Origin: a virus
IMG/VR virus record: IMGVR_UViG_3300008339_000286
Span: 1-32,248 of that record
Strand: one strand, 5' to 3'
DNA: 32,248 bases
The position numbers were made by a program, and so were the translations under genes. This document shows, one piece after another, positions 3,996 to 31,750 of this stretch (positions within the stretch are counted from its first letter, which is position 1; each line of letters begins with the position of its first letter). The notes below the pieces were generated by a model, which searched no databases, had not been told where the DNA came from, and saw only the letters and a list, made by a program, of their open reading frames with translations.

Positions 3996-4211
3996 ATGAA
4001 CACCGAAGTTAACAATCAAGAAACAAAACAACCGATTGATGTTTGGCATGAACAATTCCAGGCGTTAATGCAAGAAGCCCGGAACCAACAATTGTTTGCG
4101 CCTGATATTTTGTTTGTATTGCAACGCGCTTCAAACGAAATACAACATCAATTCAACTCAATTTTGTTTACTCACGAACACAAAACTAACCAGGATAAAG
4201 GCGAAGAATAA
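3996..4211 (+). CDS. Small acidic protein of unknown function (71 aa)
   Basis: The frame is open from 3966, but the ATG at 3996 has an ideal AAAGGG site at 3985-3990 and is chosen. The product is mostly helical and rich in Gln, Asn, Glu and His, without cysteines or membrane spans. Its TAA shares one base with the ATG of the Erf gene, so the two are probably translated together. No family is recognised. A helper of the annealing protein is conceivable from its position only. Confidence 0.65.
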   Translation: MNTEVNNQETKQPIDVWHEQFQALMQEARNQQLFAPDILFVLQRASNEIQHQFNSILFTHEHKTNQDKGEE

Positions 4212-4873
4212 TGCAAAAGATTGCTACTGCTTTAGTTGCCGCGCAAAAGGCGTTCGCGCCCGCGCTTAAAACGGCAACCAACCCTCACTACCGTACTAAG
4301 TACGCCGACCTTGCCGCCTGCGTTGAAGCGGTCATTGATGCGCTTAACGATAAGGGCATTGCCCTAATACAACGCACCCATGATTCCGATAACGGGGTTG
4401 CGGTTGAAACCTTATTTGTTCATGAATCAGGGGAAACCATTACCGGCGGCATCCTTCATGTGCCGGCACCCAAGCAAGACCCCCAGGGCTACGGTTCAGC
4501 ATTGACCTATGCGCGGCGTTATTCGTTGATGGCGGCTTGCGGGATTGCCCCCGAAGATGATGATGCCAACCTAGCAGTAAAAACGCGCCCTAGCGCGATT
4601 CCAAGGGTTGCCGGGGCATCGGTAACCAGGGAAAAGGATGGAAGTATTACGGCTACGCCTAACGCGCCTGGCGGCGAAGTTACGGTTACCCCATCCCAGG
4701 AAGAAATTGATAAGGCGGCGGGCATTATCAGGGCGTGTAAAACTTTGGTTAACCTGCAAGTGGAATGGCAGGGGTTACCAAAAGAAATTCAAAAGGCAAT
4801 CGTTGGCGTAAAGGATGAAGTTAAAGCGGCACTTGTTGCGGCGCAAAACAAACCCAAGGTTGCTAATGAATGA
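4211..4873 (+). CDS. erf: ERF-family single-strand annealing protein
   Basis: Erf proteins anneal complementary single strands and drive phage recombination, including repair and genome circularisation. The family core is complete: NPHYRTKYADLA at residues 24-35, a SGE block after a His near 71-75, the diagnostic QDPQGYGSALTYARRYSL at 89-106 and an acidic EDDDAN at 115-120. The C-terminal part, about 125-220, is a low-complexity linker and a helical tail typical of the family. It lies directly before a YqaJ exonuclease and SSB, so the three make a full exonuclease/annealase/SSB recombination module. Confidence 0.95.
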   Translation: MQKIATALVAAQKAFAPALKTATNPHYRTKYADLAACVEAVIDALNDKGIALIQRTHDSDNGVAVETLFVHESGETITGGILHVPAPKQDPQGYGSALTYARRYSLMAACGIAPEDDDANLAVKTRPSAIPRVAGASVTREKDGSITATPNAPGGEVTVTPSQEEIDKAAGIIRACKTLVNLQVEWQGLPKEIQKAIVGVKDEVKAALVAAQNKPKVANE

Positions 4874-5039
4874 AGTTACCCAGGCGGTTGATGATCGGAT
4901 TGATTACTTGAAAGCCAAGTATTCAAAAACGAATGGTGCCGAACGAATGGAATGGAAGGCAAGATTAAACGAAGCCAACCTTATTCGTGAAGCAATACTA
5001 CTTGCAATGAACAAACAAAAAGGAAACAACGATGCGTGA
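4866..5039 (+). CDS. Small helical protein between annealase and exonuclease
   Basis: The chosen ATG at 4866 lies seven bases before the Erf stop and has AAGG at 4856-4859 as a ribosome binding site. The frame is open upstream from 4815, but that part lies within erf. The 57-residue protein is almost all charged helix, with a Tyr-Leu-Lys-Ala segment near the start and a basic end. It overlaps the exonuclease gene by eight bases. I do not recognise a family. Conserved small genes in this position may help the recombination enzymes, but there is no direct evidence. Confidence 0.65.
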   Translation: MNEVTQAVDDRIDYLKAKYSKTNGAERMEWKARLNEANLIREAILLAMNKQKGNNDA

Positions 5040-5694
5040 TGCAAACCCATTTCAAAACAACGGTGCCTGGTTCAATGAACGCACCGGCAAACTAACGGCA
5101 TCCAGGATGGCGGCGGCAATGTCATTCTTGAAAGCCAAGAAGGATGAACCCGCCAGGGAATCATCCGAACGCCGCAAGTTGAAGATTGAGATACTTGCCG
5201 AAAGGTTAACGGGCAACATCGTTCCCAAATATGTAACTCAAGAAATGCAATGGGGCATTGAGAACGAACCGTTTGCAAAAGAAGCGTTTACCGCTAAGAC
5301 CGGGATGCAGATCACCGACCTGGGATTTGTAGAACATCCTTCAATTGACCTTTGCGGATGTTCACCCGATGGCTTGATTGAAGCCACGCATGAACTAATC
5401 GAAGTCAAATGCCCATCATCTGCCACCATGATTTCATGGTTGATTGAAGCCGCCCAGGATAAAGATTGGTTGCCCGAAGAATACAAACCACAAATGGCAT
5501 TGCAATCCGCTTGCATTGGCGGGGTGCCGGTTTGGTTTTGCGCCTTTGATCCACGCCTACCGGAAAAGAACCGGCTACTAATTCGTAAGTTCACGCCTAC
5601 AACGGAATACTTACAAGAGATTGAATCCAATGCCCAACGGTTCTTGGATGAAATTGAAGCAATGTTTGAACAATTAACTTTAGGGGTTGAATAA
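5032..5694 (+). CDS. YqaJ-family exonuclease (lambda Exo-like)
   Basis: YqaJ recombinases are PD-(D/E)XK exonucleases that resect double-stranded ends to give single strands for the annealing protein. The 220-residue protein shows the family blocks: TASRM at 22-26, MQWGIENEPFAKEAF at 72-86, SPDG at 111-114 with catalytic Asp113, then Glu124-Val-Lys126 as the ExK element, and the QMALQ helix at 154-158. All catalytic residues are present. It follows Erf in the same operon and shares its TAA with the first base of the SSB start codon. Confidence 0.94.
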   Translation: MRDANPFQNNGAWFNERTGKLTASRMAAAMSFLKAKKDEPARESSERRKLKIEILAERLTGNIVPKYVTQEMQWGIENEPFAKEAFTAKTGMQITDLGFVEHPSIDLCGCSPDGLIEATHELIEVKCPSSATMISWLIEAAQDKDWLPEEYKPQMALQSACIGGVPVWFCAFDPRLPEKNRLLIRKFTPTTEYLQEIESNAQRFLDEIEAMFEQLTLGVE

Positions 5695-6101
5695 TGATTA
5701 CAGTTGGATTAGCAAGAATTGGAAACGATCCTGCGGTTCGCTACACGCAAGATGGCAAGGCGGTGTTGGAACTTTCCCTGGCGTACAACTACGGGCGCAA
5801 GGGTCAGGATGGCAACTACGCTACGCAATGGGTTAACGCTTCTTTATGGGGCGAACGATGCGAAAAGATTGTTAACTATTTGCATAAAGGTGGGCAAGTT
5901 GTAGTGCAACTTAGCGACCTGCATTTGAACGAATATACTAAGCAAGATGGTACGAAGGGTGTAAACCTTCGCGCCCTGATTCGTGATTTGCAGTTGGTAG
6001 GTAAGCCCCAGGCAAAAGAACCTGCACCGCATGAACAATTCGAAAAGCCCGCAAGCCAACCTGCCAAGGATGCGGATTTAATTGATGACATCCCATTTTG
6101 A
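5694..6101 (+). CDS. ssb: Single-stranded DNA-binding protein
   Basis: The N-terminal 100 residues form an OB-fold of the bacterial/phage SSB type: a start with G-x-A-R-I-G-x-D-P, the central aromatic NYATQWVNASLWGE block, a Lys-Gly-Gly turn, then a conserved LIRDLQL strand. The tail after about residue 103 is Pro/Ala/Glu-rich and ends in the acidic DDIPF tip, the docking site for partner enzymes. At 135 residues it is short for SSB, with a reduced linker. It completes the Erf/YqaJ recombination cassette. The ATG overlaps the exonuclease stop. Confidence 0.95.
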   Translation: MITVGLARIGNDPAVRYTQDGKAVLELSLAYNYGRKGQDGNYATQWVNASLWGERCEKIVNYLHKGGQVVVQLSDLHLNEYTKQDGTKGVNLRALIRDLQLVGKPQAKEPAPHEQFEKPASQPAKDADLIDDIPF

Positions 6102-6111
6102 TTAAAATGGG
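6092..6111 (+). terminator. Perfect hairpin at the end of ssb
   Basis: CCCATTTT (6092-6099) and AAAATGGG (6104-6111) form an 8-base perfect stem with a GATT loop. The left arm contains the last ssb codons and the stop codon. There is no T-run, so strong termination is unlikely; RNA protection or partial reduction of transcription into the HNH gene is more plausible. Confidence 0.4.
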
Positions 6112-6140
6112 TACAATGGCACTTAATAGGAAGGGGCAAT

Positions 6141-6557
6141 ATGAAACTTTGCTTTAAGTGCCAGGTTAAAAAACCATTAACGGATTTTTATAAACATTCG
6201 GGAATGTTTGATGGTTATTTGAATAAATGCAAACAATGTGCAAAAAAAGATTCAAGGCAATATCGGGAATCAAATCTTGAAAAGGTGCGTTTATATGATA
6301 GGCAACGCGCTAAACTTCCATATCGCATGGAACTTTCAACAAGGCTTACTAAAATTTGGCGGGCAGAAGATAGGCGCAGAACTGCCGCACACAATGCGGT
6401 TATTCGCGCAATAAAAGCAAATAAGTTAATGCAAAAACCATGCGAAGTTTGCGGCAATAAAGAAGTTGTTGCCCACCATGAAGATTACGATAAACCTTTG
6501 GATGTTGTTTGGCTTTGTTATTCATGCCATGCAAAACATCATAAGGCAAAAAAATGA
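6141..6557 (+). CDS. HNH endonuclease with N-terminal zinc ribbon
   Basis: The 138-residue protein has an N-terminal zinc ribbon (Cys4, Cys7, Cys30, Cys33), a basic helical middle, and a C-terminal HNH fold: Cys101 and Cys104, His112-His113, Cys126 and Cys129, His130, then His133-His134. This architecture is common in stand-alone phage homing endonucleases. A strong GGAAGGGG site precedes the ATG. The gene uses more A/T-ending codons and lysine than its neighbours and is set off by a hairpin, which suggests separate acquisition. Its stop overlaps the next gene as ATGA, so it is well fitted into the operon. A packaging role is unlikely given its distance from terminase. Confidence 0.9.
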   Translation: MKLCFKCQVKKPLTDFYKHSGMFDGYLNKCKQCAKKDSRQYRESNLEKVRLYDRQRAKLPYRMELSTRLTKIWRAEDRRRTAAHNAVIRAIKANKLMQKPCEVCGNKEVVAHHEDYDKPLDVVWLCYSCHAKHHKAKK

Positions 6558-6799
6558 TATTTAGATATAGGGGGTTTAGATTGAGTTTCGGCGAACATGA
6601 TATGGCTAAGTCCATTGTTGATATTTGCAGGTTAAGTTCTGAATTGCAGAAGGTAAGCGCGGATGGCAGGAAGCGCAAACAAATGCGGGATATTGCAACT
6701 CAAATCATCCTGGAATGTGAAGTAATCCGGGAAGTAACTTCGCCGCCCTTAGTCAAAGTTAAGCCAGGTTTTTTTGCGCGACTGTTTGGCAATGGCTAA
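6554..6799 (+). CDS. Small basic helical protein of unknown function
   Basis: The ATG at 6554 overlaps the HNH stop as ATGA and gives 81 residues. A better initiation context exists in frame at TTG 6581, with AGGGGG six bases upstream, which would give 72 residues; the ATG at 6602 lacks a ribosome binding site. The product is mostly helical, with a Lys/Arg-rich centre (residues 35-45) and a C-terminus containing Phe-Phe and Gly. No family is recognised and no membrane span is convincing. Confidence 0.55.
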   Translation: MIFRYRGFRLSFGEHDMAKSIVDICRLSSELQKVSADGRKRKQMRDIATQIILECEVIREVTSPPLVKVKPGFFARLFGNG

Positions 6800-6935
6800 A
6801 ACAATTTGCATAACCCTGGTACCTATGCACTCCACCAAAATAGGCTTTGATGGTTTCTTAATTGCAATGCTTGTTTTGATGGGGTTTGTTTGGTACCTAG
6901 ATAACCGGAAGGATAAAAAGGATGGATATAAATGA
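6792..6935 (+). CDS. Overlooked 47-residue membrane peptide
   Basis: The frame starts at ATG 6792, inside the end of the previous gene, and ends with a TGA that overlaps the ATG at 6932 as ATGA. The product has one hydrophobic segment (about residues 19-35, FDGFLIAMLVLMGFVWY) followed by a strongly charged DNRKDKKDGYK tail, fitting a single-span protein with a cytoplasmic C-terminus. There is no clear ribosome binding site, so coupling to upstream translation is needed. Membrane span, tail charge and coupled ends support it, but it is short and could be spurious. Confidence 0.45.
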   Translation: MAKTICITLVPMHSTKIGFDGFLIAMLVLMGFVWYLDNRKDKKDGYK

Positions 6936-7116
6936 TGGCTTCACTCGCAACATATTTGTTCGCCGCCCTGGGCTATTGCATCGCTTTAATAGTAGGCGTA
7001 TTGCAAGTGCTATTTGCATTTTTGTTGGTATTGGCGGGCTTGGTATATATCATTATTTTGATACCGTTCGGGCTTATGAACGCGGTATTGAAGTGGGCAA
7101 ACAAGAATGTAAATAA
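6922..7116 (+). CDS. Alternative-frame membrane protein overlapping the next entry
   Basis: This 64-residue frame occupies almost the same bases as 6932-7120 in another frame. The first 25 residues look poorly protein-like, but the second half has a hydrophobic span (about 27-46) and a soluble YERGIEVGKQ-type end whose codons match phage preference: GTT for valine, GGC and GGT for glycine, ATT for isoleucine. The ATG directly follows AAAAAGG, too close for ideal binding, with AAGGA farther upstream. Either this frame, the other, or both are used; a frameshift joining the two is also possible. Confidence 0.35.
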   Translation: MDINDGFTRNIFVRRPGLLHRFNSRRIASAICIFVGIGGLGIYHYFDTVRAYERGIEVGKQECK

Positions 7117-7120
7117 ATAA
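6932..7120 (+). CDS. Small two-span membrane protein
   Basis: Starting at ATG 6932 (or the adjacent ATG 6935), with AAGGA nine bases upstream and ATGA coupling to the previous small gene, this frame gives 62 residues, very hydrophobic from about residue 5 to 50, consistent with two membrane spans and a short basic tail. It ends five bases before the terminator hairpin. Valine codons are GTA six times, GTG once and never GTT, which is unlike the neighbouring genes, so a shadow frame cannot be excluded. Topology resembles small holin-like or superinfection peptides, but its placement in the early unit argues against a lysis role. Confidence 0.5.
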   Translation: MMASLATYLFAALGYCIALIVGVLQVLFAFLLVLAGLVYIIILIPFGLMNAVLKWANKNVNK

Positions 7121-7124
7121 AAAA

Positions 7125-10630: not shown

Positions 10631-11833
10631 TTAAAATGTACCGCCATCAATTGTGATGCCATCAAAGGTGGTAAGGTTTGTAATCGAACCGCCGGTGATT
10701 GCCACATTGTTTGCGTTTTGCGTTGACATTGTTCCAAGTCCGGAAACCTGGGTATTAGCAATTGCAATTGAAGTTGCGGCAAGCGCGGTAAGTTGACCTT
10801 GGGCATTAACGGTTGCAGTTAATGTTTCGGATGCTGAACCATAAGAACCCGCAACAACTGCGGTATTGGTAATGCTAAAAGTATTGCCGGCAAGAGTTAA
10901 TCCTGTACCTGCAACATAAGAACCGGCACCGCTAAACTGCGACCAGGTAACGGGCGTTGTACCCAGCGTTCCGCCCTGGTTAACCGTACACACCCAACCG
11001 GTATCAGCGTAGGTTGTACCTTCTTCAACAAAAGTATAAGCCGATACCAATTCTGCCCAAGTGTTTGCATCGGCAGATCGCGCCCATGCGCCGGATGCGG
11101 CAACATAAATACCGTTTTCAGCAGGTGCGGTTTGATTCTTAACCAATACACGATCACCTGCAATAATGGATACACCATCAATTGTTTGTGCGCCGGATAA
11201 GGTAATATCAGCAGTTGTTGCCGCCTTTACTGATCCCTTAACATCAAGACCTTGGGCAACGCTATCAACATAGTATTTTGTTGCGGCATCTTGATCGCTA
11301 ACTGGATCAGCAAGGTTAGTAATCTTGTAACCATTCATGCTAAAGTCAGCAGTTGTTGCGCCAAGATCAGCAAGAACTGCGGCACTAGCGGCAGTTACCA
11401 AACCTTTACCGTTAACAGTTACTTTGGTAAATGTTCCAACATTACTGTTAACAGTTGCTAAAGTTAATGCACCGCTTACATCAGCAGAACCATCCACGCT
11501 AGATAAGGTTGCAGTTGCATCACCTGTTAACGATAGATTACGGGCGGTTGCCCATTTAGTTGCGGTGCCTGCGTTGCCAGTAATATCGCCAACAATTGCG
11601 CTTGAAAATGTTTTGGTGCCTGCAATGGTTTGGCTTGTTGATAAATCAACAAATGCGCCATTACCCGCAATTGCAATAATTGATGTTGCTGAACCGCCAA
11701 CTCCACCGGTACCAGTTCCGTAGTAAAGAATATTACTAGATTCGTTAAACGCTAATTCTGCGTTTTCCAAACTTGTTGGTGCGCCTGATCCGCCCGATGC
11801 GGCGCGGCGTTTAATGCGTATAGTATTTGCCAT
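10631..11833 (-). CDS. Tail fibre / collar-type structural protein (400 aa)
   Basis: The N-terminus (MANTIRIKRRAASG, then an ELAFNESSNILYYG strand) parallels that of the following 628-residue fibre and probably anchors it to the tail tip. A central GYKITNLADPVSDQDAATKYYVD motif (about residues 167-189) is the known short-fibre/collar repeat found in T4 gp12-like and many phage fibres. The C-terminus ends in a TIDGGTF-type tip. Composition is Thr/Ser/Gly/Ala-rich with few charges. Likely a trimeric adhesion or fibre shaft protein. AAAGGGC precedes the ATG. Confidence 0.78.
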   Translation of the reverse strand: MANTIRIKRRAASGGSGAPTSLENAELAFNESSNILYYGTGTGGVGGSATSIIAIAGNGAFVDLSTSQTIAGTKTFSSAIVGDITGNAGTATKWATARNLSLTGDATATLSSVDGSADVSGALTLATVNSNVGTFTKVTVNGKGLVTAASAAVLADLGATTADFSMNGYKITNLADPVSDQDAATKYYVDSVAQGLDVKGSVKAATTADITLSGAQTIDGVSIIAGDRVLVKNQTAPAENGIYVAASGAWARSADANTWAELVSAYTFVEEGTTYADTGWVCTVNQGGTLGTTPVTWSQFSGAGSYVAGTGLTLAGNTFSITNTAVVAGSYGSASETLTATVNAQGQLTALAATSIAIANTQVSGLGTMSTQNANNVAITGGSITNLTTFDGITIDGGTF

Positions 11834-22981: not shown

Positions 22982-23500
22982 TTAACTATTAGACCAACCA
23001 TAAGCGTTGCCGCCGGTTGGGTGAAGCGTAAAGATAAACTTGCCTTCTGCGCTTGGGCTTAAATCCCATTGCAAACCACCAACGCGGGCGTTGAAAGCGT
23101 AAGCAACGGTATCGGTACCATCGTAAGCGGCGATTACATAAGTACGAATAATCGTACCGTTGTAACCATCATCACGAATTAACAATTGTGCAGGATCGGC
23201 AGGATTCCATGCGGCGGTTACTGTTAAAGAAGTAACCTGGTTTTGCGTGGTGATCTTCGCACCGGTACGCGCACCTGCTACGCTAAATGCCGCAAACGCA
23301 TCATCGGCACCAAACGCGGGAATGGCTTCAACTGGAACTTGAATACCTGCGGTTCCAAGACCACCGGCAGAAGTACCAATAATTGTTTCGGTATCTGCCC
23401 AGGTGCCTAGTTCTGAATCAGTAAAAGGGGTTGGCGTTGCGCCTGATTGTGTCCAAAGGGTTGCAACATAACCCGGAAGAATTTTGTTAATGAGTGCCAT
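22982..23500 (-). CDS. Major tail tube protein
   Basis: The 172-residue protein fits a phage tail tube subunit in size and location between the tail terminator and chaperones. It begins with a short helix and then has beta strands rich in Thr, Ala and Gly, with SLTVTAAWNPADPAQLLIRD in two parts around residues 90-110 and an aromatic C-terminus. Tube proteins of this group vary greatly in sequence. It has a strong AAAGGAA site and a terminator hairpin after it, as expected for an abundant product. Confidence 0.83.
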   Translation of the reverse strand: MALINKILPGYVATLWTQSGATPTPFTDSELGTWADTETIIGTSAGGLGTAGIQVPVEAIPAFGADDAFAAFSVAGARTGAKITTQNQVTSLTVTAAWNPADPAQLLIRDDGYNGTIIRTYVIAAYDGTDTVAYAFNARVGGLQWDLSPSAEGKFIFTLHPTGGNAYGWSNS

Positions 23501-23956: not shown

Positions 23957-24301
23957 TTAAAGTGGTACCGTAGGATCGTTTCGATAGCAAACAAAGGTTA
24001 CCTTTTGGCGATCATTTGATTCGCGCACATCGGTAATCCGGTATTCCTGTCCGCGCCAGGTGATACTGTAATCATCCTGGTTAATACTCATGGTGCGGGT
24101 GTTAGGCGTGTAGTTAACTGTTAGGTTAATTAAGTCCGAATAAACCCGGTACCGTTCGGATATACGCAACATATTCGATACATCGGAAACCAGGGCGCGG
24201 GTAGTAAACCACTTCGTTTTTGAAGTTGATTGTTCCCCTAAACTGTTAACGGTAGTGTTAACAGTATTTATATCAATGGTTTCATAGCGAACGATTGTCA
24301 T
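23957..24301 (-). CDS. Head-tail adaptor / head closure protein
   Basis: A 114-residue protein of small beta-barrel type, with FTTRALVSDVSNMLRISE in two parts near residues 32-49 and a C-terminal WRGQEYRITDVRESNDRQKV region near 82-101. The 'WRGQEYRI-D' strand is typical for phage head closure or adaptor proteins, such as HK97 gp7/lambda FII-like and SPP1 gp16-like. Position between gp6-like connector and tail terminator agrees. The ATG shares a base with the connector's TAA. Confidence 0.75.
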   Translation of the reverse strand: MTIVRYETIDINTVNTTVNSLGEQSTSKTKWFTTRALVSDVSNMLRISERYRVYSDLINLTVNYTPNTRTMSINQDDYSITWRGQEYRITDVRESNDRQKVTFVCYRNDPTVPL

Positions 24302-24972
24302 TACATAACCAGGGTTTTGTATGGGCGCAACAACTGATCTACGCCGTATGGAATAGGTGCGCGTTGCCCAACCGTTGCGCCAACTGCATCGCGGGAGTTG
24401 TAGTAATGCGTTAACAATAACAATCCTGCTTGCTTCACCGCAGGATAAGTTGCAACTTCGCTTGCATTAACTGTAAATAATGCTTCAATTGGATTGGCAA
24501 TATTCTGCGCCAATGGTGTTGGAATACCTTGCGTTACGATAATTCGGCTACCAGTTGGATCGTAGTAATAATCCGCAGGATCAAGCGGGGTACGAACTGC
24601 GCCGCTAGTGCCTGCCCAATATGCCACTTCGTTAATGGTTACCCCTGCCGCGCCCGGCGAAGATTCCGGCAAATCCAAATAAACCGCCGTACCGTTTACA
24701 ACAAACCCAGGGTTTGAATAGTAAGTACGGTATTGGGTATTAACAATTGCTAATCCCAAATAATCTTCAATCGCAAAACGAACCGCCAAACCTAAACTGT
24801 TAATGTAAGCATCTTGGCTTTCATCATCTATCAGGTTAAGTTGTTGGGTCATTTCTTCAAGCGTTAGCCAGGTTGTAACAACATCCCGGTTAACCTGTTC
24901 AATCTTTTCATAATTGAACGGGTTTCTATTGCTTGCGTAAAACGGGGCAATTGTTTGGTTTTCAACCGCCAT
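24301..24972 (-). CDS. Head-tail connector (gp6-like)
   Basis: The 223-residue protein has a helix with LTLEEMTQQLNL and DAYINSLGLAVRFAIEDYLG near residues 36-74, a beta-rich middle, and a C-terminal helix VKQAGLLLLTHYYNSRDA near 180-197 ending in PYGVDQLLRPY. This matches gp6-like connectors, which form a ring below the portal. It follows the capsid genes and has a strong AGGGGG site. Confidence 0.85.
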   Translation of the reverse strand: MAVENQTIAPFYASNRNPFNYEKIEQVNRDVVTTWLTLEEMTQQLNLIDDESQDAYINSLGLAVRFAIEDYLGLAIVNTQYRTYYSNPGFVVNGTAVYLDLPESSPGAAGVTINEVAYWAGTSGAVRTPLDPADYYYDPTGSRIIVTQGIPTPLAQNIANPIEALFTVNASEVATYPAVKQAGLLLLTHYYNSRDAVGATVGQRAPIPYGVDQLLRPYKTLVM

Positions 24973-24986
24973 GATTACCCCCTAAA

Positions 24987-26315
24987 TTAACCGACTAAAC
25001 GAACACCCGCGAAAACATCCAGGATCGTGCTACAAACGCGCTTCTCTGCAAATAGGTACACGAACCCTGGCGCAGTTTGATCGAAGCGTTTGATACTCAT
25101 TTGGTTGTTATCTGCGATGGTTACAAAGCGTTCCCAATCTGCCAAGTAAACGGGGTTGTTACCTGCACCCGCAACTTCCATATATGGGTTAGGGATTACC
25201 CTATGTCCAAAGATATATACAACTGCGCCGCCATCGTCATCGCCGGCTTCAACAAACATTGGCGAACCGCCGGTTGAACCTTTTAATTTGCGGATTGCAC
25301 CAATCGTAGTTGGGTGCATCATCCAACAAGTAGAAGGTTTGAACAAATACTGGGCGGGTAATGCCGCCATTAAATTTGCTAAATCGTCATACGATACTGC
25401 GCCTGCGCTTGCCTGGTTAACTTCCAATACGGTATGAATACCATTAGTAATCGCGCTACCGTTTGAACCAAACGCCGCCGCGCTAGTGCTACCAGGGTAA
25501 GAGTTCAAACCACGCAAGCCGCTTGTTGCGCCGTATGCGGTAGTAGTGCTACCTGCCTGGTCATTGTTTAGCATCATGGATTGGGCTTCAACCTGGGAAA
25601 ACTCCAGGGCTAAATCCATAACCAATGTTTCTTCCAGGTTATCAATATCGGAAAGGATTGCAGTACGAACTGGCAATACCGCGTTTACATCGCGAATCGG
25701 CAATTGCCAAAATGCGGTTGCCTGATTTGGCGAACCTTCATTGGTGTTAATGCCATAACCCCAGGGGTTTGTTGCATCCTGGGAGTTACCAGTTTTAACA
25801 ACAAACGCCTGATCGGAACCGGTAGTTACGATTTGGCGCGATACTTGGCGAAAAGGGTTTGCAAGGCGAAGTGATGCAAACGCATCATCGTATATAACGC
25901 GCCCGCCAACATCCGAACCTGAACCAGTTAACGCGCTTGCTTCGCGCAAGTTAACCGTTGCTTGCCCTTCAAGTAGGGCTTCTTTAATGCCTTGAAATAT
26001 TGCGCTATTATCCATTTTCCTTAGTTCCTTTTCTGCCCATGTTTTGCCAGGATCACCACCCCACAATGCCCACGCGATACGCCCCGCACTTGGGTACCCA
26101 TCCTCGCCAGGCTTCCAACCTTTGCCCTGCTTATCTACTTCATGCCGGGCAAAATAACTAACCATTCGTGCAATTGTCGCGCGGGGTAAATCCTTACCGT
26201 TGCTAATATCACGCGCCCTTGCAACTCCAACTTCTGTACCACCTCGCCCAAATTCCTTACGCCATTCTAAGCCCCTGCGGGCTTCTGCTTTCATAGCATC
26301 GGTTGGTTTAGGCAT
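24987..26315 (-). CDS. Second HK97-fold capsid paralogue with alternative N-terminal domain
   Basis: Residues from about 125 to the end (442) are clearly related to the capsid protein encoded upstream: both have EASALTGSG, LRLANP, WGY and WQL blocks, EFSQVE, DQAGSTTT, GLRGL and YPG in the same order, and end in RFDQTAPGF or RYDQTAPGF and EKRVCS. In place of the coiled-coil delta domain it has about 100 residues of a different domain: ARRGLEWRKEFGRGG near 12-26, FARHEVDKQGKGW near 55-67 and YPSAGRIAWALWGGDPG near 74-90. I have met this domain in other phage structural proteins but cannot name it. An internal ATG at 26015 could yield the capsid domain alone. It may be a minor shell protein or a second major one. 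Confidence 0.85.
   Translation of the reverse strand: MPKPTDAMKAEARRGLEWRKEFGRGGTEVGVARARDISNGKDLPRATIARMVSYFARHEVDKQGKGWKPGEDGYPSAGRIAWALWGGDPGKTWAEKELRKMDNSAIFQGIKEALLEGQATVNLREASALTGSGSDVGGRVIYDDAFASLRLANPFRQVSRQIVTTGSDQAFVVKTGNSQDATNPWGYGINTNEGSPNQATAFWQLPIRDVNAVLPVRTAILSDIDNLEETLVMDLALEFSQVEAQSMMLNNDQAGSTTTAYGATSGLRGLNSYPGSTSAAAFGSNGSAITNGIHTVLEVNQASAGAVSYDDLANLMAALPAQYLFKPSTCWMMHPTTIGAIRKLKGSTGGSPMFVEAGDDDGGAVVYIFGHRVIPNPYMEVAGAGNNPVYLADWERFVTIADNNQMSIKRFDQTAPGFVYLFAEKRVCSTILDVFAGVRLVG
26013..26030 (-). promoter_or_regulatory. Internal ribosome binding site and start in the capsid paralogue
   Basis: On the leftward strand AAGGAACTAAGGAAA (26030-26016) lies directly before an in-frame ATG at 26015-26013, which is codon 101. 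Two AAGGA copies precede it, one at usable spacing. Initiation here would produce a 342-residue capsid protein without the N-terminal domain. Confidence 0.45.
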
Positions 26316-26340
26316 TTATCTTTTTCTATTCATTTAAGAA

Positions 26341-26357
26341 GGGGGGCAAAGCCCCCC
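26341..26357 (-). terminator. GC hairpin between the two capsid genes
   Basis: GGGGGGC (26341-26347) pairs with GCCCCCC (26351-26357) across a 3-base loop. On the leftward strand TTCTTAAATG follows, giving a weak T-tract. It lies seven bases after the stop of capsid gene 1 and is expected to reduce transcription of the paralogue. Confidence 0.7.
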
Positions 26358-26364
26358 AACTTTA

Positions 26365-27681
26365 TTACGCGCCCGTTGCGGTAGAACGGTAACGAATGAT
26401 TGCAAATGGATCAACAACGCTAGAACAAACGCGCTTCTCACCGTAGAAGGTGATAAAGCCAGGTGCGGTTTGATCGTAACGGCGTAGAACCATGTTCAAA
26501 CGGTCAACAATGGTATGTCCGCGAGTAAAATCACCGAAGTACATTGGGTACTTAGAAACGGTACCAGGTGATGCGCCTGCGGCAACTGGGCTATCAACAT
26601 AGTTGTTAACAACTACATCGTAACCTAGCAACTTACCAACAATACCTTCGTAAACGCCAGGTGCCATGCGTTCAAATACTGGGGTGTTGTTATCGTCAAC
26701 CATGCCACGAATAAACGAAAGCATCAATGGCGAAACCATGAACTTATTGTTAGCGTTCCAATATTGTTGTGGAAGGCTATGCAAGAAGTTGATAAGGTCA
26801 GCAAAGACCATTTGGCTTGTTCCGCCTGCGGCGTTGGTGGTCAACTGGTCATAAGTTGCAATGCTATGCAAACCTGCGCTTGCGCCAGTTCCGCTAGAAC
26901 CAAATGCGGCGGTAGAAATTGTGCCACCGGTGTAAGTACCGTTTGCGCCAGGATAGTAATCCAAACCACGCAAACCGTTTGTGCCACCGGTTGCAGTAGT
27001 TGTAGAACCTGCCTGGTCATCGTTGGCGATCATGGATGCGCCCTCAACTTGCGAGAACTCAACCAACATATCATCAACCACATTGGCTTCCAAACCATCA
27101 ATATCATCCAAAGCCGCAGTACGGATTGGGAATTGGGTGTTGATGTCTTGCAAAGTCAATTGCCAAATGTTTGTATTCTCAGTAGTTGCGGCACCATTGT
27201 TCTGAATGGTGTAACCCCATGATGCGCCTGCGTTACCTGTCTTAGCGCGGAACTGATAGGTTGCGCCATCGGTAGATACATTGCGTGAAAGTCCGCGCAT
27301 TGGGTTTGCCAAACGCAAGGCATGGAATACGGGATCGTATGCAGTACGACCACCAACGCCCGCGCCCGAACCGGTCAATGCAGATGCTTCGTTTAGGTAG
27401 GCATCGTACTGATCGACTGATTCAAACATTTTGATTTCTTTTTCAAGGCTATTGCCCTTTGAAATGAACTCTTTAAGTTGTGATTTAACCATGCGGTTAA
27501 CATCACTCTTAATGGTTTTTGCAGGTGCCTGGATAATTGCGGGTGCCTTAACTTCTGCAACCTTGGCTTCCAGGGCGGCTAACTTCTCGGCAACTTCAAC
27601 CTTAACGGCTTCAACTGCTTCTGCAATCTTGGATTCATTTTGTGCCGCGATTGCATCTAATTTTTCAAATACTTTTTCCAT
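26365..27681 (-). CDS. Major capsid protein 1, HK97 fold with delta domain
   Basis: The 438-residue protein has an N-terminal charged coiled coil (about 1-95) like the HK97 delta scaffold, removed by the protease during maturation. The mature part probably starts near EASALTGSG at 98-106. Then come LRLANPMRGLSR, a WGY strand, EFSQVE, the DQAGSTTT loop and the C-terminal RYDQTAPGF and EKRVCS. It follows the protease by 12 bases and has a good AAAGGAAG site. A terminator-like hairpin behind it fits high expression. It is the more standard of the two capsid proteins and is probably the main shell subunit. Confidence 0.93.
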   Translation of the reverse strand: MEKVFEKLDAIAAQNESKIAEAVEAVKVEVAEKLAALEAKVAEVKAPAIIQAPAKTIKSDVNRMVKSQLKEFISKGNSLEKEIKMFESVDQYDAYLNEASALTGSGAGVGGRTAYDPVFHALRLANPMRGLSRNVSTDGATYQFRAKTGNAGASWGYTIQNNGAATTENTNIWQLTLQDINTQFPIRTAALDDIDGLEANVVDDMLVEFSQVEGASMIANDDQAGSTTTATGGTNGLRGLDYYPGANGTYTGGTISTAAFGSSGTGASAGLHSIATYDQLTTNAAGGTSQMVFADLINFLHSLPQQYWNANNKFMVSPLMLSFIRGMVDDNNTPVFERMAPGVYEGIVGKLLGYDVVVNNYVDSPVAAGASPGTVSKYPMYFGDFTRGHTIVDRLNMVLRRYDQTAPGFITFYGEKRVCSSVVDPFAIIRYRSTATGA

Positions 27682-27693
27682 TTTTCGCTTCCT

Positions 27694-28524
27694 TTAAGAA
27701 ATGCGTTTTTCCAATGCCTTTTCTAGTTCGCGTAATTCAAATGCGCGTACCAGTTCGGCTTCCATGTCCACCGCATCCGCTTCACACGAACTTGGGGTTT
27801 CCTGAACAACCTCTTGTTTCACCTCACGCGAAACCAAAAGTTTTTTCAGAATTGAAGATGCGGTGGTTGCATCTTTTCGGGAAACGCCTGCCTCACGCAA
27901 GAGTTTTTCGATTACTCGCGGATTCGGATTACCTTCCGCATCAAATGCTTCCAAGGCATGAATTTCTGCGCTTGGGTTATTTGGGTACATTACAACGGAT
28001 ACTTCACGCAAACCGCCTTTAGTGATTTGGAAATATGCATCATCGGATTGCCATTTTGGATTCGAATAGATTGAACCATCCGTTCCAGGCATTAGGGGTT
28101 CGCCTTCGGCATCAACCCAACAGGCTTCTTCGGCAAATGCGCCAACGGAAACGCCACCAAATAGATTGGGGCTTTCTTTTAATACGGTATATAAATCGTT
28201 GCCGGCAACGGTGTTCAAGAACAACTTGCCTTTAGCGGTCATGCCTTCATCGTCAAAATCAAATTCGTACCATTCGCCAACTGGCATATCCATATCGTTA
28301 TGGTTCAAAAACATTGGTAATGGTTTGCCGGCTTCGCGGAACTCCATCGCCCAATCCATAAATCCTTCGGGTTGGTAATTAAATTTGCGACCATCCGCAC
28401 CTTCCCTCGCGCCCCAGGTGGTAACGCGGGCTTCCATCATTCCCGATGGAACTGCGGCTTCATTCGCGGATTCGTTAACCTTTAATTTTGCTTCGCAAAC
28501 TAGGCTTAAATTCGGTAGTTTCAT
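27694..28524 (-). CDS. Prohead maturation protease (HK97 type)
   Basis: This serine protease cuts the capsid delta domain. The 276 residues have an EGFMDWA helix near residues 53-59, FLNHND with catalytic His75, a GEWYEF strand and GGVSVGAF with Ser126, followed by LREVSVVMYPNNPSA, the usual end of the protease domain. The C-terminal 80 residues, from about 200, are helical and charged, and may be a scaffold-like segment. A GGGGTGA ribosome binding site stands before the start. It sits between portal and capsid as is normal. Confidence 0.9.
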   Translation of the reverse strand: MKLPNLSLVCEAKLKVNESANEAAVPSGMMEARVTTWGAREGADGRKFNYQPEGFMDWAMEFREAGKPLPMFLNHNDMDMPVGEWYEFDFDDEGMTAKGKLFLNTVAGNDLYTVLKESPNLFGGVSVGAFAEEACWVDAEGEPLMPGTDGSIYSNPKWQSDDAYFQITKGGLREVSVVMYPNNPSAEIHALEAFDAEGNPNPRVIEKLLREAGVSRKDATTASSILKKLLVSREVKQEVVQETPSSCEADAVDMEAELVRAFELRELEKALEKRIS

Positions 28525-28654
28525 GTATCACCCCATGATGAATTGATTGGTTATCGTCTGTTATCTTGTGGGGCGTATTACCTTTACGCAGTTTAACATT
28601 TGGCTTCTTGATTTGGGAAGCCATTGTTAGCAATATTTTATTTAACAAATTCAT
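28475..28654 (-). CDS. Overlooked 59-residue basic protein between portal and protease
   Basis: The ATG at 28654 overlaps the portal stop as ATGA. The frame runs 59 codons to a TAA at 28475-28477, crossing the 126-base gap and overlapping the protease start by 50 bases. The product is basic: residues 1-10 hydrophobic, then SQIKKPNVKLRKGN at 13-26 and a His-containing middle. No family is recognised and no cysteine or membrane span is present. It fills an otherwise empty gap, and the coupled start is the pattern used across this genome. An alternative start is ATG 28624. Confidence 0.55.
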   Translation of the reverse strand: MNLLNKILLTMASQIKKPNVKLRKGNTPHKITDDNQSIHHGVIHETTEFKPSLRSKIKG

Positions 28655-30051
28655 GTTTTGCCAATATTTGTGCGTAAAGTTTGATTGCCGCCACCGCCCC
28701 CGGTGTCCTGGGGGCTTGATCCTGGTACTGGTTCAAAATCAGTTGGTTCAATTTTGATTACATCGCCGTTTTCAATTTTCGGCATATTCAAATATTCGCG
28801 GGCTTCGTTTACAGTCATGATGCCGGAATTAACTGCGGCATTAACAAAGTTAATCTGATCGAGTACGGCACCCTTCAAGAATTCCTTAGTATCAAAACGA
28901 ACCACTAAATTAGGGTAACCACGCAATAGGTGTTGATTCAATTTTTGTTCAACATTGATAACCATTGGATACATGGTTGTTTTGTAGAATTCATCCAACT
29001 GCGTTTGGGTGTTGTTGTACTTGGATTCGCCAATGCCTAGCATCGCGGCAGGTACGCCAAACAAACCGCAAATGCGCTTCATGGTTTGCATCTTTAGCGC
29101 GGCGGCTTCTGCATCTTGAAGCGTTAACATATCAATCGGGGTATATTTCATACCCTGATCTAGCAACATTCCTTGACCGGGTTTAGATAAATCCTGGTTG
29201 CGGGAACCTAGCATATTAGTCCAGGCTTCTTTTAGGCGGCCGGCGATTTCTTTATATTTCGCATCCGGAATTACCTGGTCAGTTGTAAACATTCCCGATG
29301 GCTTTGCGCCGTTTTGCATAATGTAATTGGCGTATAGGTCAATATCTTGATCTAGTCCTACCAACTCCGCCGCAAGAATTCCTTTGTTGAAACCTGATGA
29401 ACCTTGCCAGGCGGCTTCTTTAATATGCATAACCTGCCAGTATTCCAACGGGTTATCTTTTGAAAACCCATACGAAGGCGTTGATAGGCGATAGTATGGA
29501 TACCGGGTTTCCGAAATGCCTACGGTAATAAGCGTGGAATCCAGGTTATACATTTCAAGCGGCGTTTGCATTTGATCTTTTTGCTTATCGCGCCACCATA
29601 GCGTAAACGATTCGCCGGTCAAATCCTGCCACATACACCATTGATACCAAAACTCATAAGAGGATTGGAAGTTGTTTGGTTGGTATAGCAGATTCAATAC
29701 TTGTTTTGCTTTTGCCTTATCGCGGGCGGTTGTTTTATCGGATTGCAACGCATCAACAAAAGTACCATCATCCTGCTTCAACATAATGCGCTTGGGCAGT
29801 TGCGCCATTGCGCGGGCTTTAACTCCAACGCAAGCCATAATCGTACTGTTACGGGTAAGCATTGATAGATCAACTTGCCGCCCCGCAGTAGTTGCGCTTG
29901 ATGTTGTTACATATAAAAGTTGTTGGGCGATCTTCCCTTGTTGGGTTTGCCCATAAATAACCTGGTTACCAAGTTGGGTTTGTCCAAGAACGGTATTCGA
30001 TTCTTGTTGGGATTTACTATTTTTGCCTTTGAAAATGTCCAATATTCCCAT
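28651..30051 (-). CDS. Portal protein, HK97 family
   Basis: The 466-residue protein forms the dodecameric ring through which DNA enters the head. Features are a Gln/Ser-rich N-terminus, a stretch about 60-90 with MACVGVKARAMAQLPKR, LLYQPNNFQSSYEFW, an LDQDIDLYANYIMQNGAKPSG block near 228-248, and GVPAAMLGIGESKYNNTQTQ in two parts near 336-355, the latter diagnostic for the family. It ends in a Pro/Gly/Asp-rich tail. A GGGGG site lies before the ATG. It follows the terminase large subunit by 31 bases. Confidence 0.95.
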   Translation of the reverse strand: MGILDIFKGKNSKSQQESNTVLGQTQLGNQVIYGQTQQGKIAQQLLYVTTSSATTAGRQVDLSMLTRNSTIMACVGVKARAMAQLPKRIMLKQDDGTFVDALQSDKTTARDKAKAKQVLNLLYQPNNFQSSYEFWYQWCMWQDLTGESFTLWWRDKQKDQMQTPLEMYNLDSTLITVGISETRYPYYRLSTPSYGFSKDNPLEYWQVMHIKEAAWQGSSGFNKGILAAELVGLDQDIDLYANYIMQNGAKPSGMFTTDQVIPDAKYKEIAGRLKEAWTNMLGSRNQDLSKPGQGMLLDQGMKYTPIDMLTLQDAEAAALKMQTMKRICGLFGVPAAMLGIGESKYNNTQTQLDEFYKTTMYPMVINVEQKLNQHLLRGYPNLVVRFDTKEFLKGAVLDQINFVNAAVNSGIMTVNEAREYLNMPKIENGDVIKIEPTDFEPVPGSSPQDTGGGGGNQTLRTNIGKT

Positions 30052-30082: not shown

Positions 30083-31750
30083 CTAAAAACTACGAAAACC
30101 CCAACTATTTGATAGCGATGGATTATCTAAAGCGCAATGCATCGCGATAATCATTGCAATTATTCCATCAACTTTCGCTGATTTATCTGCTTCATTCTTA
30201 CGAACCTTAATGTTTCCGTTAACATCCTCGTAAACTTCGCAGTTGCCAAGTTGCCATCCAACGAACGGATTGCCGTTATGTTTGATTTGATGTTGCAAGA
30301 TTAACCGTTCAACCTGCTTGCTTGGATTGTTAAGAACTGCCATGCCTTGCCCTACCTTCTTTACCGGCAACCCGGCTTCGTGCAGGCGGGCAACCAGGGA
30401 TGCGGCGTTGTAGGCATCGTAACCAATTTCTTTAACATTCTTGTACTGCGAACATTTGTTAATAATGTAATCGGATATTTCGCGATCATCCATCACATTG
30501 CCTGGCGTTAACTTTAGAATTCCGGAATCTACTGCCACCCGGAATATGTCCTGGTAATGTTTGGGTACCAGGTTATATCCTTCTTCCGGTAAGAAGAACT
30601 GAAATTCAACTTCGTAATCATCATCGGCAAATCGTTTAAGAAAACAACAAGCGTTCAAATCTCGCGTTGCCGCAAGGTCAAATCCTACAAATACGGATTC
30701 GGGTTCGCGTTCTTCTTTAATTAAACAATCTTCGTGATCCCAATGGGCGCGATCTAACCAGGCAGTATTTGCGCTAACAAACACATTAAGGGTTTTGCAT
30801 AGGAATTCGTTAAGGCTTGCCGGCTTATGTTTGGCTTCTTCCGCCCGTTGTTCGATGGCTTCTTGAAATACGGTAATGCCATGCATCGGGTTAACTTTCG
30901 CCCAGGTGCCGGAATCCTTCCAATCATCCTGCGGATCAAGCCCATATAACAATCCAAACCACCTGGGGTTATCGGTTGCTTCGCCCGTTAACATTGATTG
31001 AAACAAATCGTAATCTTCGTAAAACTTTGTTTCTTTTGTAAACGATGCGGTGGTTATGTATATACGCAAGGGGTTCGCCCGCGCGACCATACCGGAATGA
31101 AGTACCTCGATGGAGTTGCGATCTACAATCTGCGCGGCTTCGTCAACAATCACGCAACTAGGGTTTTTACCATCCCCGCTTTTTTTAGTGTCGCGGCTTA
31201 GTGCCTTGAACACCGTTTGCGAATCGCCGGTTTTTTGTATCTCGTATTTGGTTGGGTTAAACAATGGCTTTAACTCCGGCGGCATGGATTCGATAAATCC
31301 CTTGGCGGAATTGAAAACAATGGATGCTTGTTCGCGGTTGGTTGCCAGGGTAAATACTTCCGCGCCCGGTTCGCCGCATACTAATTCATATAAACCAATC
31401 ACCGCAGTAAGGGTAGATTTACCTGCCTTCCTGGGAATAAACAAAATCACATCGGTAACCATCCGGCGGGCGTGATCCTTCTTGGATCGGAAACCGTAGA
31501 TGGCACATAAGAAGAACACCTGGAACGGTTCCAGGATAACGGGCTTGCCCGCCATCAATCCCTTTGTATGTTTTAGGCAGGCGGCAAAATCCAGTATGTG
31601 TTGCGGATAGTCCGGATCAAATACCCATTCCCATTCTTTATTTTCGTATTGGTTAATAAAGCGTTGGCAGGCTAATCGAACATTTCGGCAAACATTTATT
31701 TCGCCCTTCGTTACCGCGTGGGCGTATGCAACACCATCTTGCCAATTCAA
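30083..31750 (-). CDS. terL: Terminase large subunit
   Basis: The packaging motor ATPase and nuclease. In 555 residues it has Walker A PRKAGKST at 106-113, Walker B CVIVDEA at 199-205, and the RNase H-like nuclease with Asp358 and Asp364 in GFDLAATRDL. This is the HK97/Terminase_1 type. The start codon is TTG at 31750: an in-frame stop lies just upstream, no in-frame ATG exists before residue 66, and the first residues match the family's N-terminal helix. GGGTTAAC precedes it. It lies three bases after the small subunit stop codon. Confidence 0.95.
   Translation of the reverse strand: MNWQDGVAYAHAVTKGEINVCRNVRLACQRFINQYENKEWEWVFDPDYPQHILDFAACLKHTKGLMAGKPVILEPFQVFFLCAIYGFRSKKDHARRMVTDVILFIPRKAGKSTLTAVIGLYELVCGEPGAEVFTLATNREQASIVFNSAKGFIESMPPELKPLFNPTKYEIQKTGDSQTVFKALSRDTKKSGDGKNPSCVIVDEAAQIVDRNSIEVLHSGMVARANPLRIYITTASFTKETKFYEDYDLFQSMLTGEATDNPRWFGLLYGLDPQDDWKDSGTWAKVNPMHGITVFQEAIEQRAEEAKHKPASLNEFLCKTLNVFVSANTAWLDRAHWDHEDCLIKEEREPESVFVGFDLAATRDLNACCFLKRFADDDYEVEFQFFLPEEGYNLVPKHYQDIFRVAVDSGILKLTPGNVMDDREISDYIINKCSQYKNVKEIGYDAYNAASLVARLHEAGLPVKKVGQGMAVLNNPSKQVERLILQHQIKHNGNPFVGWQLGNCEVYEDVNGNIKVRKNEADKSAKVDGIIAMIIAMHCALDNPSLSNSWGFRSF

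Follow-up and report, generated by a model that had tools for sequence, protein, structure and literature searches.

We have analysed a window of 32,248 nt (the whole of the stretch considered here, positions 1-32,248 of IMG/VR record IMGVR_UViG_3300008339_000286) in which the head genes lie on the minus strand in the order small terminase, large terminase, portal, S78 protease, capsid A, capsid B and head-tail adaptor (Table 1). Beyond the adaptor come further connector and tail genes, the tape-measure protein among them. This is a standard HK97-type siphovirus head module plus one surplus capsid gene.

Table 1. Features of the head-gene module, with positions in the window and the evidence for each.
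Feature	Position	Strand	Evidence or remark
Terminase large subunit	30083..31750	-	PF20441/PF03354; 70.5% to P19250A TerL
Portal protein	28651..30051	-	PF04860, 209 bits; query of the capsid-blind census
Prohead protease (S78)	27694..28524	-	PF04586, 31 bits; phrog_3244; upstream of A
Gene A, main HK97-fold major capsid protein, 438 aa	26365..27681	-	PF05065, TIGR01554, phrog_10
Delta/scaffold-type domain of A (residues 1-95), predicted to be helical	27397..27681	-	Precedes the conserved N-arm motif EASALTGSG
Hairpin, GC-rich, with a 7 bp stem and a 3-nt loop	26341..26357	-	GGGGGGC-TTT-GCCCCCC; just past the A stop codon
Gene B, second HK97-fold capsid paralog, 442 aa (full ORF)	24987..26315	-	PF05065; 43% identity to A
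B residues 1-100, extra N-terminal domain	26016..26315	-	Not homologous to the delta domain; phrog_2859 type
ATG inside B (26013-26015), preceded by the Shine-Dalgarno GAAAAGGAACTAAGGAAA	26013..26033	-	Where the short B protein (MDNSAIF...) would begin
Putative short B form, 342 aa	24987..26015	-	24-residue N-terminal segment plus HK97 core; homologous to domain-free B, e.g., P19250A 6066-7124
Head-tail adaptor (gp6-like)	24301..24972	-	PF05135; phrog_442; directly after B

The original prediction had described the two capsid genes as tandem paralogs of the HK97 fold, sharing the same order of conserved blocks in their cores, and both points hold. Each product matches Pfam Phage_capsid (103 bits for A and 78 for B, with a cut-off of 24), NCBIfam TIGR01554 above its curated cut-offs and phrog_10, major head protein. 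The two align with 43% identity across 340 aa (E 1e-73) and with their motifs in identical order; this E value and the independent capsid profiles led us to reject a chance or low-complexity resemblance. The C-terminal half of the AF2 model of B is good (pLDDT mostly 75-93), and the top fold match of its core was the capsid of the Rhodobacter capsulatus GTA (RcGTA, 6tb9; E 1.4e-17, TM 0.71 by target length), with HK97 capsids also matched. The HK97 fold is thus predicted for B with E values down to 1e-17, and the model of A, which is poor (54 pLDDT), returned the same kind of capsid matches. RcGTA also provided the best PDB sequence match of A; in this particle one capsid protein makes both capsomer types. 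Mean column identity was 71% for A (43 sequences) and 49% for B. Judging by their location, their fold and the selection acting on them (see below), A and B are very probably both functional head proteins.

Hundreds of relatives of this phage were found in IMG/VR. Our census took every pooled locus in which a portal gene was followed by 4 kb or more of sequence, and a portal query was used as well so that loci were not picked by their capsid content. In 160/160 family loci (124 distinct pairs) there was a single A and, after it, a single B; all 45 loci (44 distinct) of the portal-only, capsid-blind subset are among them. The two genes occur together, always in this order, across a large freshwater phage family. 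Methylophilaceae phage P19250A (KX815270), described as a siphovirus of freshwater bacteria of the LD28 clade (PMC8163748), was the only isolate found to carry both genes, with the same operon, tandem A (58.6%) and B (57.3%) and a hairpin in the spacer, although its B is devoid of the extra N-terminal domain. We found no close isolate with a single capsid gene, the next relatives by TerL being only ca. 34% identical, and VW-6S and Azospirillum phage Cd, used as outgroups, have one capsid gene each. Some family contigs (L165-L170) had been assigned to MAGs of archaea and of alpha-, beta- and gammaproteobacteria; these assignments are probably binning errors and so do not identify hosts.

The original prediction had proposed searching for the pair in related genomes and building a phylogeny of both copies. 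In such a tree, with the two outgroups included, A is monophyletic (support 0.96) and so is B (1.00). This reciprocal monophyly indicates one ancient duplication, older than the radiation of the family and not erased by gene conversion. Hence the duplication as first described was real, but it is not private to the phage of the window: it is ancient and family-wide. Decay of the B frame in relatives, one half of what had been named as a sign against the prediction (the other being absence of the protein from virions), did not occur in any of the loci. Median dN/dS was 0.13 for A and 0.10 for B (254 pairs), i.e., both genes are under strong purifying selection, and the B clade is ca. 1.5-fold longer (8.6 vs. 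5.7). The census, the reciprocal monophyly and the dN/dS values together dispose of a recent duplication, an assembly artefact or a decaying pseudogene. Pairwise distances in A correlated with those in the portal at 0.68, in B with those in the portal at 0.78, and in A with those in B at 0.66; taking portal, protease and adaptor together the ranges were 0.64-0.70 for A and 0.75-0.78 for B. Since A distances track the neighboring genes less well than B distances do, this suggests that A alleles have been exchanged somewhat more freely, by recombination. We also considered two adjacent ORFs of 220 aa elsewhere in the window (4211-5694) as a second duplication, but they correspond to an Erf annealing protein and an exonuclease and are not paralogs.

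The hairpin that had been noticed between the capsid genes is there. Taken alone the copy in the window is modest (shuffle z = -1.8, with a weak U-tract, TTCTT), and the case for it therefore rests on the family. A GC-rich hairpin lies within a few bases of the A stop codon in practically every distinct A-B spacer, as judged by folding energy and by eye, and 73 of 90 distinct spacers passed a strict perfect-stem test. Within the 60 nt past the A stop, 101 of 148 distinct sequences had a strong perfect stem and 92 a U-tract (at least 4 U within the next 8 nt). Strong hairpins were found after 0/136 TerL, 0/146 protease, 8/134 portal and 2/146 B stops, likewise within 0-8 of ca. 140 after the adaptor, and in 8/562 random stretches. 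The sequence of the stem varies across the family while the stem itself persists. What follows A in most relatives thus has the predicted signature of an intrinsic terminator or attenuator (a GC-rich hairpin and then a U-tract), and we take it to be an attenuator-like or terminator-like element, or else one that would form the 3′ end of an mRNA. Hairpins behind the structural genes with the highest expression would fit either attenuation or 3′-end protection, from which more A than B is predicted. The original prediction had read the hairpin as a sign of unequal expression; its conservation and usual U-tract are consistent with this, the unequal expression itself being what we infer from them. 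The second most common hairpin site in the family was after the gene at 22982-23500 (31/145 distinct), which has no family match and occupies the usual tail-tube position. In one relative (L129, 4307-4985) the A-B spacer extends to 679 bases, and the reading frame that follows the hairpin resembles, by eye, a GIY-YIG homing endonuclease.

The two proteins also differ ahead of the N-arm motif. In every A protein measured ca. 95-108 residues precede it, for which AF2 gives, at low confidence, helices at 2-43 and 57-75, while in B there are 21-40 residues or an unrelated domain (the motif search left some sequences unresolved). An HK97-type delta domain is an N-terminal scaffold of ca. 100 residues that the prohead protease cuts off; sequence and models make one plausible in A and speak against one in B, in agreement with the claim that only one copy carries it. 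What had been overlooked is that the B of the window has instead a different domain of ca. 100 aa and, behind it, an internal start with a strong Shine-Dalgarno. This domain matched phrog_2859 over residues 4-98 (3e-23), and searches of Pfam, NCBIfam and PDB with it gave nothing useful. It was found in 37 of 243 B ORFs. The same type of domain is N-terminal in the protease-capsid fusions of Roseobacter phage CRP-811 and Synechococcus phage S-CBS1, is included in the prohead protease of phiPsal1 and stands free as a protein of 110 residues in PaBG, a distribution from which it appears to be mobile and often head-associated. A sequencing error joining it to B can be rejected, as the reading frame runs through uninterrupted and 22 distinct genes share the fusion.

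In all 22 distinct domain-bearing B genes the internal ATG has been kept. It coincides with the start codon of the domain-free B genes, and at the equivalent place the Met is missing from the readable copies of the domain outside B. For these reasons the domain-bearing gene probably yields two proteins, one long and one short. The Shine-Dalgarno by itself is no proof of the internal start, because its GAAAAGGAA part doubles as the codons for EKE of the extra domain.

Taken together, we place just on the probable side a head built of two obligate paralogous HK97-fold subunits that derive from the single ancient duplication. In this model A, with its delta-type propeptide, would be made in quantity, direct the assembly of the procapsid and supply the hexamers. 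The conserved hairpin and U-tract past its stop would end or trim part of the transcripts before B, so that less B is made, and B, devoid of the delta domain, would co-assemble on the A lattice, most likely supplying the pentamers of the eleven vertices not occupied by the portal. Within the subgroup of the window, the extra N-terminal domain and the retained internal start would provide a long and a short vertex subunit from one gene. We infer, then, the presence of B in virions, its vertex position and the dual translation products, as we did the unequal expression. A more elaborate version, in which the long product of the dual-start vertex gene puts an exchangeable domain in or on selected vertices of this small siphovirus, the short one fills the rest and the attenuator hairpin sets the A:B ratio, we offer only tentatively, as a possibility that we would not call probable. 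Two arguments stand against placing B at the vertices. One is that HK97-type siphoviruses need no vertex protein, their pentamers being normally made of the same subunit as the hexamers. The other is that A alleles may have been swapped while B stayed constant, something that a close fit between vertex and hexamer might not allow.

Such a partial exchange of A alleles would suit a mosaic shell, in which B would be a minor subunit mixing with A in the hexamers or in both types of capsomer, with no fixed place at the vertices, tuning stability or surface. That both paralogs are obligate would suit such a shell as well, and so would the N-arm and P-domain contacts, which are conserved in both proteins. 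We also located the indels that are fixed between the A and B clades but not inside either (with the domain boundaries taken from predicted secondary structure by analogy to HK97). The N-arm, the spine helix and the P-domain hairpin, regions that make contacts between capsomers, have almost none. The E-loop does have some, and they are stronger in the axial domain at the capsomer center, with 26.8 columns between A and B vs. 3.9 within A and 2.4 within B. Subunits of the same capsomer pack against each other precisely there, and these fixed differences argue against free mixing, so that we regard the mosaic as unlikely. The same pattern is what a B capsomer of another symmetry docking in the A lattice would be expected to need, as at a vertex. 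We give it little weight, the signal being weak because axial-domain indels are also the most frequent class among distant HK97 capsids (A and VW-6S differ by 50 indel columns in the axial domain).

The absence of the delta scaffold in B might also point to a factor for assembly or for a special vertex, of which a small number of copies would nucleate the procapsid at the portal or carry a cargo domain into the prohead without being a general shell subunit. The domain of the subgroup, found elsewhere on the prohead protease or in protease-capsid fusions, is in line with this. Yet B has kept the complete HK97 core with a recognizable predicted fold, and the extra domain is absent from most B genes (206/243 ORFs); we consider such a factor improbable. 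A duplicated capsid gene with probable differential expression could also serve to make heads of two sizes, B replacing A in some particles or shifting the curvature. Against this, B is devoid of the domain with which HK97-type heads assemble, and only one genome size, 38.7 kb, goes with the nearest isolate, P19250A, with no hint of a satellite or of a second genome size, which leaves the idea very little room. The faster evolution of B would suit an allelic switch by host or condition, or a non-structural decoy or antidefence protein, but both genes are always present in a fixed order and dN/dS shows B to be no less constrained than A, making either highly improbable.

The two-paralog head with B at the vertices has an obvious counterpart in T4, in which the pentamers consist of gp24, a paralog of the major capsid protein gp23, and bypass mutations lie inside the capsomer (PMC3012670). 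In both cases there are two paralogous HK97-fold genes, both retained, and the proposed roles, an abundant hexamer subunit and a minor vertex one, would be equal. However, A and B belong to HK97-type siphoviruses of ca. 35-39 kb, B is devoid of the delta domain and is preceded by a conserved hairpin, and the pair is universal in its family, whereas gp24 has been regarded as recent and easily bypassed (PMC3012670). Chains of gp23 and gp24 were absent from the PDB sequence matches and from the best 50 fold matches of A and B, and for this reason the pair would be a functional analogue of gp23/gp24 at most, not a member of that system. The term “major capsid hexamer protein” is already in use as an annotation label in RazzB, a siphovirus among the cluster AP actinobacteriophages (PMC13014141).

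Textbooks cite the small siphoviruses of HK97 type as the example of a single protein making hexamers and pentamers. Dedicated vertex paralogs were known already from T4; what appears to be new is the pair in small siphoviruses of the P19250A type, as in a collection of open-access papers we found no description of it in these phages, nor of tandem HK97 paralogs in small siphoviruses in general. An abundant freshwater family in which every member carries a pair of capsid paralogs would lend itself naturally to the study of when and why capsids specialize their vertices, and also of how phages set subunit ratios. P19250A is in culture, which makes the two-paralog question testable now; in its record A is labeled “gene transfer agent capsid protein” and B only “hypothetical protein.” Finally, a 400-aa protein in the tail region of the window (10631-11833) matches phrog_2647 (“head decoration”) along with tail-fibre families, and may be a protein of the virion surface.
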